A stretch of 64,000 nucleotides of DNA, taken from assembly GCF_011734195.1 (NCBI RefSeq), contig NZ_JAANTH010000002.1:124001-188000 (forward strand), given 5' to 3'. A program made the position numbers and the translations under genes. This DNA comes from Halobacterium sp. R2-5 (GTDB taxonomy: Archaea > Halobacteriota > Halobacteria > Halobacteriales > Halobacteriaceae). The notes below the pieces were generated by a model. The model saw only the letters and a program-made list of their open reading frames with translations. It was not told the DNA's origin and made no database searches. This document shows, piece by piece, positions 25,415-28,987 of the stretch; position 1 is the first letter of the stretch; each line of letters opens with the position of its first letter.

Positions 25415-27211
25415 ATGAGCAGCGTTCCCGAACGCAGCGAGCTCTCCGAGGAGCACACGTGGGACCTCGAGAGCATCTACGCGACCGACGACGACTGGGA
25501 GGCCGCCTACGAGGACGTCGCCGCGAAGCTCGACGAGCTCGAGGCCTACGAGGGCCGGCTCGCGGAGTCCGGCGAGACCCTCCTCGAAGCCCTCCGTCTG
25601 CGCGACGAGATCCACCGCGAGGCCGAGCAGGTGTCCGCGTACGCGCGGATGCGCTCGGACGAGGACACCCGCGACCAGCAGTACCAGGCGCTCCGCGCAC
25701 GGGCGTCCAGCCTGATGGCGGACGTCTCCAGCGCGAGCTCCTTCTTCGACCCAGAGCTCCAGGACTGCACCCGCGAGGAGCTCCAGGCCCTCGTCGAGGA
25801 CGAACCCGAGCTAGAGACCTACGAGCACTACTTCGACGACGTGCTCCGCATGAAGCCGCACACGCGCTCGGCGGAGGTCGAGGAGCTGCTGAGCGACCTC
25901 GGCGAGGTGCTCGGCGCGCCCAGCGACGCGTACAACATGCTGACGGATGCGGACCTGGAGTTCCCGACGGTCGAGGACCCCGACGGCGAGCCCGTGGAGA
26001 TCTCGCAGGCGAACTTCACGAAGCTCCTCAAAGAGCCCGACCGCGAGTTCCGCCAGACCGTCCACGAGTCCTTCTACGAGACCATCGGCGACGTCCGGAA
26101 CACCATCGGCGCGACGATGAAGAATCAGGTCAAGAAGGACGTCAAGCTCGCGGACGCGCGGAACTACGACACCGCCCGCGCGGCCGCCCTCGACGGCGCG
26201 AACATCCCGACGGAGGTGTACGACAACCTCGTCGATACGGTCGACGACAACCTCGACAAGCTCCACCGCCACGTCGACCTCAAGCGCAAGGCGCTCGGCG
26301 TCGACGACTTCCAGATGTGGGACCTCTACATGCCCATCGTTGACTCCGAGAGCCCCGAAGTCTCCTACGAGGAGGCCAAAGAGCACGTCGTGGAGGCGGT
26401 CGCGCCGCTCGGCGACGACTACCAGAACCGGGTCGCCGACGGCCTCGAATCCCGGTGGGTGGACGTCTACGAGAACCGCGGGAAGCGCTCGGGCGCGTAC
26501 TCCGGGGGGACGTACGACACCCAGCCGTTCATCCTGATGAACTACCAGGACGACATCTCCTCGATGTTCACGCTGGCCCACGAGCTCGGGCACAGTCTCC
26601 ACAGCCAGTACACCAGCGAACAGCAGCCGTACGTCTACTCGCAGTACGAGATCTTCGTGGCGGAGGTCGCCTCCACGGTCAACGAGGCGCTGCTCGTCAA
26701 CCACCTGCTGGACACGGTCGAGGACGACCACTTCCGGCGCCACATCCTCAACGAGTACCTCGAGCGCTTCCGCTCGACGCTGTACCGCCAGACGCTGTTC
26801 GCGGACGTCGAGCACCGCCTGCACTCGCTGGCGGAGGACGGCGAGGCACTCACCCCGGACCGCGTCGACGAGGTGTACGGCGAGCGCAAGGAGGCCTACT
26901 ACGCGAACGCCGTCGTCGACGACCACATCCGCCGCGAGTGGATGCGCATCCCGCACTTCTACTATAATTTTTATGTTTACCAATATGCGACTGGAATAAG
27001 CTCTGCCGTTGCAATTGCTGACCGCATCCTAAATGAAGGTGGTAATGAAGCTGCGACCCAGTACCGTGAGGCTCTGCAACTGGGCGGCAGTGAGTACCCC
27101 ATCGATATCCTCGACCACGCCGGAGTCGACGTAACTAACTCCAAGTTCATCGAGACCGCTCTCGATGTTTACGAAGAACACCTTGATGAGGCGGCCGAAC
27201 TGCTGGAATAG
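25415..27211 (+). CDS. pepF: Oligoendopeptidase F with a replaced C-terminal tail
   Basis: 598 residues from ATG 25415. M3B metallopeptidase that cuts short peptides in the cytoplasm. The zinc site is AHELGHSLHS (His389, Glu390, His393) with Glu417 in FVAEVAST. Codons up to Tyr516 (RIPHFY) have the high-GC style of the chromosome. From Tyr517 the DNA turns abruptly AT-rich (10 of the first 38 bases are G or C) and encodes an 82-residue tail ending ELLE. The native 80-residue tail lies 1.78 kb downstream at 28745-28987. The tails match at roughly half of positions, including NFYV-QYATGIS and ALDVY-E, so the chimaera should be functional. Confidence 0.93.
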   Translation: MSSVPERSELSEEHTWDLESIYATDDDWEAAYEDVAAKLDELEAYEGRLAESGETLLEALRLRDEIHREAEQVSAYARMRSDEDTRDQQYQALRARASSLMADVSSASSFFDPELQDCTREELQALVEDEPELETYEHYFDDVLRMKPHTRSAEVEELLSDLGEVLGAPSDAYNMLTDADLEFPTVEDPDGEPVEISQANFTKLLKEPDREFRQTVHESFYETIGDVRNTIGATMKNQVKKDVKLADARNYDTARAAALDGANIPTEVYDNLVDTVDDNLDKLHRHVDLKRKALGVDDFQMWDLYMPIVDSESPEVSYEEAKEHVVEAVAPLGDDYQNRVADGLESRWVDVYENRGKRSGAYSGGTYDTQPFILMNYQDDISSMFTLAHELGHSLHSQYTSEQQPYVYSQYEIFVAEVASTVNEALLVNHLLDTVEDDHFRRHILNEYLERFRSTLYRQTLFADVEHRLHSLAEDGEALTPDRVDEVYGERKEAYYANAVVDDHIRREWMRIPHFYYNFYVYQYATGISSAVAIADRILNEGGNEAATQYREALQLGGSEYPIDILDHAGVDVTNSKFIETALDVYEEHLDEAAELLE

Positions 27212-27295
27212 CGATACCTGTGATTTGACCTTCTATCATCTATCTCTCTGCCAAACAAATATTAAGTACTTCAGTATCTAAGTAAGCTATGTGAG

Positions 27296-27433
27296 ATGAC
27301 GAAGCGATTGACAGTGGACTTCGAGGATGACGTGTACAAGGAGTTCTCAAAGCAGTGCATCGACGCCGAGAAAACCAAGTCCGACGTAGTGCGCGGACTT
27401 GTCACCGATTGGCTGAACGAACCCGAAGAATGA
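27296..27433 (+). CDS. 45-residue ribbon-helix-helix (CopG-like) protein in front of tnpB
   Basis: ATG 27296 to TGA 27433. It begins MTKRLTVDFEDDVYKEFSK and continues KTKSDVVRGLVTDWLNEPEE: one beta strand and two helices, the size and pattern of a minimal RHH DNA-binding domain. Its TGA overlaps the tnpB ATG in ATGA, so the two are translationally coupled. It may repress the element promoter in the spacer 27212-27295 (AATATTAAGTACTT region). RHH genes beside tnpB are unlike the usual tnpA partner. Confidence 0.75.
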   Translation: MTKRLTVDFEDDVYKEFSKQCIDAEKTKSDVVRGLVTDWLNEPEE

Positions 27434-28704
27434 CCGGCTCACAGGCCCTCGTTAAGACGCTGGACTTCCAACTCGATATCCAGAATGACAACGAGAGCCT
27501 GCTCCGTGGCGCCACGCTTGAAGCGCGCTCGGTGTACAACGAAACCATCCGCCTCGCCAAAGACGGCGTGGATTGGGACACGATTTCCGACCGTGTGGCC
27601 GATGACGCGAACCTCGTGAAGAACACGACACAGCGCGTCGTCGCCAAAGCACTCGGGGCGATGGAGAACTACTACGAGTACGACGACTTCGGCCAGCCGA
27701 GCCACACCAAGGACGGCGTGTACCCGCTTCGAGCCAACTACGAAGAAGGCTACAATCTATCCCTCACCGACGACGGTGACGTGACGTTCCGTATCAGCGC
27801 GAAGCCGTACAAACACGTCACGGGCGTTCTCAAAGGGAATGACGCCCATCTCAACATTCTCAAGACCGCCCTCGAAAGTGACGAGTGGACGATTGGGACG
27901 GCGGAAGCCTTGTTCCACGACAACACCGCCGAGTTGCACGTCAACGTCACCAACACCGAGCAGACTGTTCGGAACAAGCAGGATTCACGAACAGTCGTTG
28001 GTGTGGACGTGAACGAGGACAACGTGGCTCTGACCGCACTCTCTGCGGATGGGGTTGAGGATACGTTGGTTATCGACTTCCCCGAGATCAAATTCGAGCG
28101 CCACCGCTACTTCACGATGCGCAAGCGCGTGCAGAACGCGGAGAAGCCGAGTATGCACGATACGCTGGAAGGGCGTGAGGAACGGTTTGTCTGTGATAGA
28201 CTCCACAAGGTGTCTCGACACATCGTGGAGTGGAGCCGTCAGTTCGAGAAGCCATGTATCGTCTTTGAAGACCTCAAAGAGATACGCGACAGTATCGACT
28301 ACGGCACGCGGATGAACCGACGCTTGCACCACCTCCCCTTCCGCACCCTCCAACACTACACGTCGTACAAGGCGGCCTTTGAGGAGATTCCAACTACGTG
28401 GATTAATCCCGAGTACACGAGCCAACGGTGTCCGCTCTGCGGGCATACGGAGCGCGCGAACCGCAATAAGAAGCGGTTCAAGTGTCGAGACTGTGAACAT
28501 CAAGACCACAGCGACCGTGGTGCAAGCATCAACATCGCCGTCAAAGGCAGCAAGAAACTCGATTGGAATGTGCCTGCTCTCAACAACCTTCCCCAAGTCA
28601 GGAAGGTGCGACGGCAGGCATCGGGGGCCGTGGACGCCCCGACCGTGACCCACGACACCGCTACAGGCCACCTTGCCGATGGTGTCGCGGGAGTGTCCGA
28701 CTAA
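27430..28704 (+). CDS. tnpB: TnpB RNA-guided endonuclease (IS605/IS1341 family)
   Basis: 424 residues from ATG 27430. An upstream in-frame extension to 27355 would overlap the RHH gene entirely and is rejected. The RuvC site is intact: Asp193 in VVGVDVNEDN, Glu280 in CIVFEDLKEI and Asp362 in DHSDRGASINIA. The zinc ribbon is CPLCGHTE with CRDC (Cys334, 337, 352, 355). The N-terminal recognition part begins QALVKTLDFQLDIQN. Such proteins cut DNA next to a target-adjacent motif using an RNA made from the element's right end. The intact triad argues against a nuclease-dead TldR-type repressor. Codon use is less GC-biased than in the chromosome around it. Confidence 0.95.
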   Translation: MTGSQALVKTLDFQLDIQNDNESLLRGATLEARSVYNETIRLAKDGVDWDTISDRVADDANLVKNTTQRVVAKALGAMENYYEYDDFGQPSHTKDGVYPLRANYEEGYNLSLTDDGDVTFRISAKPYKHVTGVLKGNDAHLNILKTALESDEWTIGTAEALFHDNTAELHVNVTNTEQTVRNKQDSRTVVGVDVNEDNVALTALSADGVEDTLVIDFPEIKFERHRYFTMRKRVQNAEKPSMHDTLEGREERFVCDRLHKVSRHIVEWSRQFEKPCIVFEDLKEIRDSIDYGTRMNRRLHHLPFRTLQHYTSYKAAFEEIPTTWINPEYTSQRCPLCGHTERANRNKKRFKCRDCEHQDHSDRGASINIAVKGSKKLDWNVPALNNLPQVRKVRRQASGAVDAPTVTHDTATGHLADGVAGVSD

Positions 28705-28764
28705 CCACGGGAAGCCTCGGGACTTGACCCCAGAGGCGGTTCACTACAACTTCTACGTCTTCCA
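28590..28764 (+). ncRNA. Predicted omega/reRNA guide overlapping the tnpB 3' end
   Basis: In this family the guide RNA is transcribed from the 3' part of tnpB through the right end, with the guide being the 16-20 bases just beyond it. Here that would be the native pepF codons starting TACAACTTCTACGTCT at 28745. The 5' limit is a guess; only the position relative to the element end and the hairpin at 28714-28737 supports it. Confidence 0.4.
28714..28737 (+). other. Right-end hairpin of the TnpB element
   Basis: GCCTC and GAGGC pair, with a partly paired GGG/CCC inside, 7 bases before the terminal TTCAC at 28740-28744. IS200/IS605 right ends carry such imperfect hairpins for strand recognition and as part of the guide RNA scaffold. 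Confidence 0.6.
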
Positions 28765-28987
28765 GTACGCCACGGGCATCTCGGCGGCCGTCGCGCTCGT
28801 CCAGGACATCCTCGAGGAGGGCCAGCCCGCCGCGGACCGCTATCTGGACTTCCTCGAGCGCGGCTCCAGCGAGTACCCGCTGGAGCTGCTGCGGGCCGCC
28901 GGCGTCGACATGTCCACGAGCGAGCCCATCGAGCGCGCGCTCGACGTCTACGACGAGCGCCTCGAACAGGCCGAACAGCTGTTCTGA
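28745..28987 (+). pseudogene. Displaced native 3' end of pepF
   Basis: 80 codons plus TGA in the same high-GC codon style as pepF codons 1-516. It begins YNFYVFQYATGISAAVAL, exactly the continuation expected after RIPHFY, and ends EQLF. No stop or frameshift has accumulated. It is joined in frame to the end of the element (GCG GTT CAC TAC) but has no start codon of its own in a sensible place, so it is an orphan fragment. It now also provides the presumed guide sequence of the element. Confidence 0.88.

Follow-up and report, generated by a model that had tools for sequence, protein, structure and literature searches.

The window analysed here, a stretch of 64,000 nucleotides (nt) of Halobacterium sp. 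R2-5 (contig NZ_JAANTH010000002.1, positions 124,001 to 188,000), holds a pepF gene whose native 3' end is displaced by a compact unit encoding the RNA-guided endonuclease TnpB, and whose reading frame is kept open by a foreign tail that the unit carries. On balance, the insertion is probably a pepF homing unit derived from a tnpB-only element of the IS200/IS605 insertion sequence (IS) type and equipped with a foreign rescue tail. We further propose, more tentatively, that it may be a natural RNA-guided cut-and-rescue homing element of archaea, guided by the native gene end that it has displaced and passing from one species to another with a tail proof against that guide. The genome of the window is denoted G000 in all comparisons, and the locus is composed as follows.

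25415-26962, + strand: native 5' part of pepF (oligoendopeptidase F, M3 family; Pfam Peptidase_M3, TIGR00181).
26958-26962, + strand: left target motif TCTAC, the transposon-associated motif (TAM).
26963-27211, + strand: carried pepF 3' tail, foreign, 82 codons plus stop, pepF frame kept; stands where a left end and tnpA would usually lie.
27212-27254, no strand assigned: short stretch 3' of the carried stop codon, which probably came with the tail.
27255-27295, + strand: remnant, read by eye, of the intergenic region between tnpA and the small open reading frame (ORF); tnpA is divergent in complete relatives.
27296-27433, + strand: ParG-like protein of the ribbon-helix-helix type, 45 amino acids (aa) (Pfam ParG, E=2e-5, above the cut-off).
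27430-28704, + strand: TnpB, 424 aa, RNA-guided endonuclease (NCBIfam guided_TnpB, 120.7 bits, cut-off 100).
28705-28744, + strand: right end with hairpin, closing in TTCAC; expected 3' part of the omega RNA scaffold.
28745-28764, + strand: predicted guide TACAACTTCTACGTCTTCCA, the start of the native tail and the first 20 nt 3' of the universal right end.
28745-28987, + strand: native pepF 3' tail, orphaned and without a start, resembling the tails of uninterrupted congeners.

The ends of the unit were defined with 120 relatives of the window TnpB taken from other haloarchaea. The right end closes in TTCAC in every one of the 120 scored relatives and is followed directly by sequence specific to each copy, as expected if that sequence serves as the guide. 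Likewise, the pentamer TCTAC precedes the left end in 64 of the 68 relatives in which a left end is recognisable. These two rules place the unit at 26963-28744, and the TCTAC at 26958-26962 implies that the carried tail starts exactly where a left end would normally begin. Deletion of 26963-28744 gives back an uninterrupted pepF. The window unit thus has three features of the IS200/IS605 type, namely TnpB, a conserved right end directly before the guide DNA and a TAM at the left flank. Neither the left end, with its subterminal hairpin, nor tnpA was found in the unit, and the carried tail occupies their place, so that the unit is a derivative of such an element and not a complete member. The RuvC-like motifs GVDVNED, VFEDLKE and SDRGASINIA were recognised in TnpB by reading, and profile searches recognised only the ParG-like protein and TnpB between 26963 and 28987, with no integrase gene in that interval. 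By eye, 27255-27295 resembles ACAAGAATTAAGTATTTCAGTATCTAAGTAAGGATGTGAG of the relative L108 and similar copies, so that some 40 bases are left 5' of the small ORF, and 27212-27254 is unlike the upstream region of the printed relatives.

The hybrid pepF protein of 598 aa encoded at 25415-27211 scores 620 bits against TIGR00181 in a profile search (cut-off 490), and the orphan tail shares 74-95% protein identity with the tails of uninterrupted congeners; a pepF tail is present in 388 of the 391 genomes of the class. The native tail follows the right end directly, so the guide is expected to read as uninterrupted pepF does. The predicted guide TACAACTTCTACGTCTTCCA was indeed found, adjoining TCTAC, with 20 of 20 matches in nine of ten empty congeners and with 19 of 20 in the tenth, and many other haloarchaea differ from it at 1-3 positions. 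The carried tails, on the other hand, mismatch the guide at 6-7 of the 20 nt, four of them within the first 12. The first-pass annotation, made from the letters of the window, had taken the carried segment for a rescue tail that escapes its own guide, and the window copy does look like a working tail, with 6 of 20 nt mismatched and 4 of these in the first 12. Given the known behaviour of TnpB, six differences among the first 20 bases should prevent cutting of the carried tail. A carried tail with native codons would place a TAM and a full target side by side in one chromosome. In the orphan tail of a second genome, G035 (locus L032), the guide is changed at positions 6 and 9, reading AAT TTT as in the carried tail.

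The carried tail was found at the identical base in three Halobacterium genomes, the window genome G000, G035 and G319. G035 holds the complete unit and G319 keeps the carried tail only. At the G319 locus (L033), an insertion with a degraded reading frame resembling a DDE-type transposase has replaced TnpB and the native tail, and the carried tail is retained. Two further genomes, G192 and G328, were considered as carriers and rejected, their copies being ordinary full-length paralogues. In the tree of the native pepF 5' part the carriers are interleaved with non-carriers and form no clade, G319 grouping with the non-carrier G234 (99/97) and G000 with the non-carrier G353 (84/90), so that at least two changes are forced. 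Synonymous divergence (dS) between G000 and G035 amounts to 0.42 for the pepF 5' part and 0.42 for the orphan tail, as opposed to 0.074 for the carried tail, 0.037 for the small ORF and 0.151 for TnpB (carried tail versus pepF 5' part, p=2.8e-5). The other two carrier pairs gave 0.31 and 0.36 for the pepF 5' part against 0.09 and 0.05 for the carried tail (p=0.004 and 6e-5). The neighbouring genes truD and PAN have dS values of 0.37 and 0.21. Of the changes separating the orphan tails of G000 and G035, 18.5 are synonymous and 4.5 non-synonymous (neutrality rejected at p=5e-9); the non-synonymous divergence (dN) is 0.025. This almost exclusively synonymous change implies that the orphan still served as the functional end of the gene through most of the period following the divergence of the species and was orphaned recently. 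TnpB has a dN/dS of about 0.28 and is under purifying selection. In combination, the scattered carriers, the low dS of the unit and the fresh orphan point to one unit having entered a single site repeatedly and in recent times, and repeated horizontal entry fits these data better than inheritance from a common ancestor. The unit behaves as a single horizontally moving block with its boundaries at the predicted ends, patchily distributed and younger than its flanks, as in fungal homing elements of the mobile ORF (mORF) type.

These comparisons bear directly on a plainer history, in which a single insertion of an IS605-type element disrupted pepF and recombination with DNA from a different haloarchaeon repaired it. 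The arrangement would then have been passed on vertically or through ordinary recombination, and the codon differences would serve no function. Some forks in the pepF tree are weak, foreign tails differ in codon choice anyway, and AT-rich coding extends far beyond the guide, all of which suits such a history. Vertical descent is nevertheless opposed by the non-sister carriers, the low dS of the tail and the intact orphan with its low dN, and the element would find a complete target for its own guide in any unrecoded tail following TCTAC; we regard this account as unlikely. Several points also weigh against the homing reading itself. When PAN, a neighbour that evolves slowly, serves as the reference, the unit is less diverged to a marginal degree only (p=0.03-0.17). 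TnpB and the spacer are less alike between the species than the tail is, at 94% and 90.5% identity compared with 98.4%. The known carriers number three and belong to a single genus, and ordinary homologous exchange between species could move the block without any action of TnpB. The right-end hairpin is weaker in the window unit than in its relatives (-14.5 kcal/mol as opposed to -21.5 kcal/mol for the family form), the changed guide suggests that the G035 copy may no longer target a typical pepF, and cleavage and homing by this particular TnpB are predictions, the former from the fit of guide and TAM.

The codon differences between the two tails were followed along their whole length. The first-pass annotation had stated that all of the first 12 shared residues are spelled differently in the copies starting at 26963 and 28745, and every pair proved correct (carried/native: TAT/TAC, AAT/AAC, TTT/TTC, TAT/TAC, GTT/GTC, CAA/CAG, TAT/TAC, GCG/GCC, ACT/ACG, GGA/GGC, ATA/ATC and AGC/TCG). 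Codon 6 lies among them as an unshared residue (TAC/TTC, Y/F), codon 14 is likewise unshared (TCT/GCG), and codon 15 is the same in both tails (GCC/GCC). The tails comprise 82 aa (carried) and 80 aa (native) and share 56% protein identity, and 31 of the 45 shared residues have a different codon. Different codons account for 12 of 12 shared residues in codons 1-13 and for 19 of 33 thereafter (Fisher p=0.0085, with the cut at codon 13 picked after inspection of the data). The chance of 12 out of 12 is about 1e-5 given the codon frequencies in the rest of the tail, some of which are based on very few codons (Tyr TAC 3/3). Within the 20-nt guide the difference is not significant, at 6/6 against 25/39 elsewhere (p=0.16). 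Successive blocks of 13 codons in the carried tail contain 10, 9, 7, 2, 3 and 7 codons ending in A or T, that is, 26 of the first 39 compared with 5 of the next 26 (p=0.0003). The recoding gradient is thus real, but it is broader than the target, with about 39 codons or some 117 nt being AT-rich. Uniform synonymous divergence along the tail is rejected by the 12/12 versus 19/33 contrast together with this gradient, and recoding confined to 20-36 nt is rejected by the extent of the AT-rich codons. The suggested concentration of divergence in the first 20-36 bases hence survives in part, differences being denser near the target but extending past it. Similarly, of the outcome that would have spoken against recoding at the target, a uniform divergence did not materialise, while the lack of confinement to the target and the absence of recoding in other rescue cases did.

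In a tree of 72 tails, which has low resolution, the carried tail falls outside the native Halobacterium tails. This position, the AT-rich stretch of about 39 codons and the protein identity of 56% indicate a foreign origin of the tail, which appears to be the simplest source of the recoding and would suffice for it; design by selection is not shown by these data. In view of the same three observations, the idea that the tail had been recoded at the target for the purpose of escape is not supported. Selection of that kind would have acted on a native-like tail, whose first 20-36 bases would have changed one codon at a time while the element's guide attacked it. The excess of different codons near the target would agree with this, as would the Halorubrum allele described below, whereas the tail is foreign in protein sequence from end to end and its AT-rich coding covers about 39 codons, which makes such design very improbable. 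The sequence TAT-AAT-TTY occurs at the target place in only 4 of the 391 haloarchaeal genomes, namely the three carriers and one Halorubrum. In this strain, Halorubrum sp. CSM-61 (loci L213 and L313, apparently the same genome as G226), pepF continues with TAT AAT TTT after TCTAC in the absence of the element. Only 5.4% of the codons of the L213 pepF end in A or T, yet its target coincides with the start of the carried tail. By a rough estimate about 0.15 such cases would be expected by chance in 391 genomes, which tells against selective design; a resistance allele or a conversion scar is possible.

Searches for the donor of the carried tail found no source. The best cellular match in a class-wide search had 72% protein identity, a GTDB-based scan of contigs reached at most 67% and a plasmid search at most about 51%. 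A search of haloviruses for a pepF tail returned only Halorubrum tailed virus 27 (HRTV-27), and the DNA pattern of the recoded start was absent from the viral contigs. The pepF tail of HRTV-27 adjoins an integrase and is 57% identical to the carried tail, and it is preceded by TTCTACTACAACT, which matches host pepF at the very junction of the unit. The gene in question, gp35 (L283; MZ334522.1, 23628-23882), is annotated as a hypothetical protein and corresponds to a pepF 3' tail. These features suggest pepF as the likely integration site of HRTV-27, and a viral source of the carried tail appears possible.

The viral tail leads to the alternative of an integration scar. Here, a virus or integrative element attaching at pepF would have brought the tail, in the way that integrases rebuild the gene they enter, an IS605-type element of the ordinary kind would later have entered the right attachment site and the provirus would have been deleted. 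The codon differences would then reflect only how the virus spells the tail, and TnpB would play no particular part at pepF. The position of the HRTV-27 tail beside its integrase, with TTCTACTACAACT at the junction spot, is in line with this account, and Hafunaviridae encode tyrosine recombinases and form proviruses flanked by direct repeats (PMC8651126). It also draws on five TnpB copies, 61-83% identical to that of the window and located in different genera, which adjoin a complete tRNA-Met (L143, L161, L177, L179 and L191, in G261, G226, G300, G145 and G245), a type of gene often used for attachment. In four of the five, the final 9 nt of the tRNA are present a second time, immediately adjacent to the right end. 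Conversely, the pepF unit contains no integrase or viral gene, the HRTV-27 tail groups with the tails of other hosts in the 72-tail tree and not with the carried tail, and no provirus with an HRTV-27-like tail integrated at pepF was recognised in the 391 genomes. An integration scar might account for the first source of the tail, but it leaves the recent spread of a compact unit to three non-sister species unexplained, and as a complete explanation we consider it fairly unlikely. As a first step, followed by loss of the provirus, the left end and tnpA, it is a serious possibility and compatible with later homing.

Other TnpB copies near restored gene ends were compared with the pepF unit. In the tRNA-Met copies L143 and L161 the left end is still visible, inserted in a remnant of the attachment site, and TnpB may guard the attachment sites of integrative elements. 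The restored end in four tRNA-Met cases agrees with the guide over 9 nt, at which point the gene stops, and the sequences differ thereafter. In L137 (G351) the interrupted gene is restored without recoding by a near-identical copy of its end, 59 nt long, that precedes the left part of the element; the restored end is identical for 38 nt, but it is preceded by TTTAC and not TCTAC. The interpretation of L137 as a dead TnpB beside an unrecoded copy was dropped, its stop lying at codon 412 of 424 and activity being possible. Within this small sample, recoding does not appear to be general among rescue cases, and what they seem to have in common is that they either fail to match the guide in full or have a TAM off the consensus. 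Six further copies from different genera (L159, L160, L162, L164, L165 and L166), one of them on a Halobacterium hubeiense plasmid, have nearly the same 30-nt guide (GGCGCCGAACGGTGAGCG...) and lie near the end of the same reading frame, to which the left end gives a new stop.

The cut-and-rescue proposal takes up the observed anatomy, the TAM and right-end rule, the match of the guide to empty alleles, the horizontal block and the uneven coding divergence. An ancestral element would have had its usual left end and tnpA replaced by a foreign pepF 3' tail. Its TnpB would then cut TCTAC followed by TACAACTTCTACG... in unit-free copies of pepF, and repair from a unit-bearing copy would trim back to TCTAC, where homology begins, and copy the unit in from the TAM onwards. 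Such trimming would produce the sharp left boundary at the TAM seen in all three species. The cell would keep an open pepF frame through the carried tail, which would be too unlike the native tail for easy recombination, so that loss of the unit between the tails would be hindered. The recoding would have come with the foreign tail and persisted, since TnpB would cut a tail that matched the guide; cleavage, homing by repair, the importance of pepF and selection on the mismatches are what we infer here. Among plasmid copies, an IS has been reported to spread through the action of TnpB (PMC11870625). Since haloarchaea hold their genome in many copies, the same logic could act on chromosomes. If the proposal is true, cleave-and-rescue logic exists in nature with an RNA-guided nuclease from a lineage thought to be ancestral to Cas12. 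The proposal would account for the continued spread of a TnpB element that has lost its transposase and for its settling inside a conserved gene without breaking it, and would explain why a rescue copy needs to differ from the guide. The unit is a compact and directly testable case in culturable haloarchaea.

Engineered cleave-and-rescue and recoded-rescue gene drives combine a nuclease aimed at a host gene with a recoded copy that escapes the guide. The pepF unit likewise pairs a nuclease predicted to target a host gene with a differing copy that should escape it, but it is natural, carries the gene end only and sits at the target itself, and its recoding seems inherited rather than designed. 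With IS200/IS605 elements, in which TnpB acts as a retention factor or gene drive (PMC11870625; Karvelis 2021, PMC8612924), it shares TnpB, the right end, the TAM at the left flank and a guide taken from the flanking target. It departs from them in carrying a host-gene tail in place of the left end and tnpA, in leaving the target gene open and in its TAM, TCTAC. Integrative viruses and tRNA-integrating elements that rebuild the 3' end of the gene they enter (PMC8371274) also bring an element-borne gene end, in HRTV-27 at the same spot of pepF, but these are large and integrase-driven, whereas the unit lacks an integrase and its boundaries follow the rules of TnpB elements. The closest overall likeness is to the mobile ORF elements of fungal mitochondria with foreign C-termini, known from atp6 of Allomyces macrogynus and from atp6, atp9, cox2 and nad3 of Glomus sp. 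(PMC3630166). The two atp6 tails in Glomus have 63.5% DNA identity and 91% protein identity, and in Allomyces the endonuclease was described as responsible for mobility (PMC3630166); homing into element-free alleles has been proposed. Both systems join the 5' part of a host gene to a foreign C-terminal tail, in the fungi with mostly synonymous differences, and contain an endonuclease ORF and a displaced native tail, and in the window, too, the foreign tail restores the gene and the native tail is displaced. The fungal elements use LAGLIDADG or GIY-YIG protein endonucleases in organelles, whereas the pepF unit encodes an RNA-guided TnpB in an archaeal chromosome. What is new here is the RNA-guided nuclease with a displaced native gene end as its guide, the overall plan being already known from the fungal mORFs.
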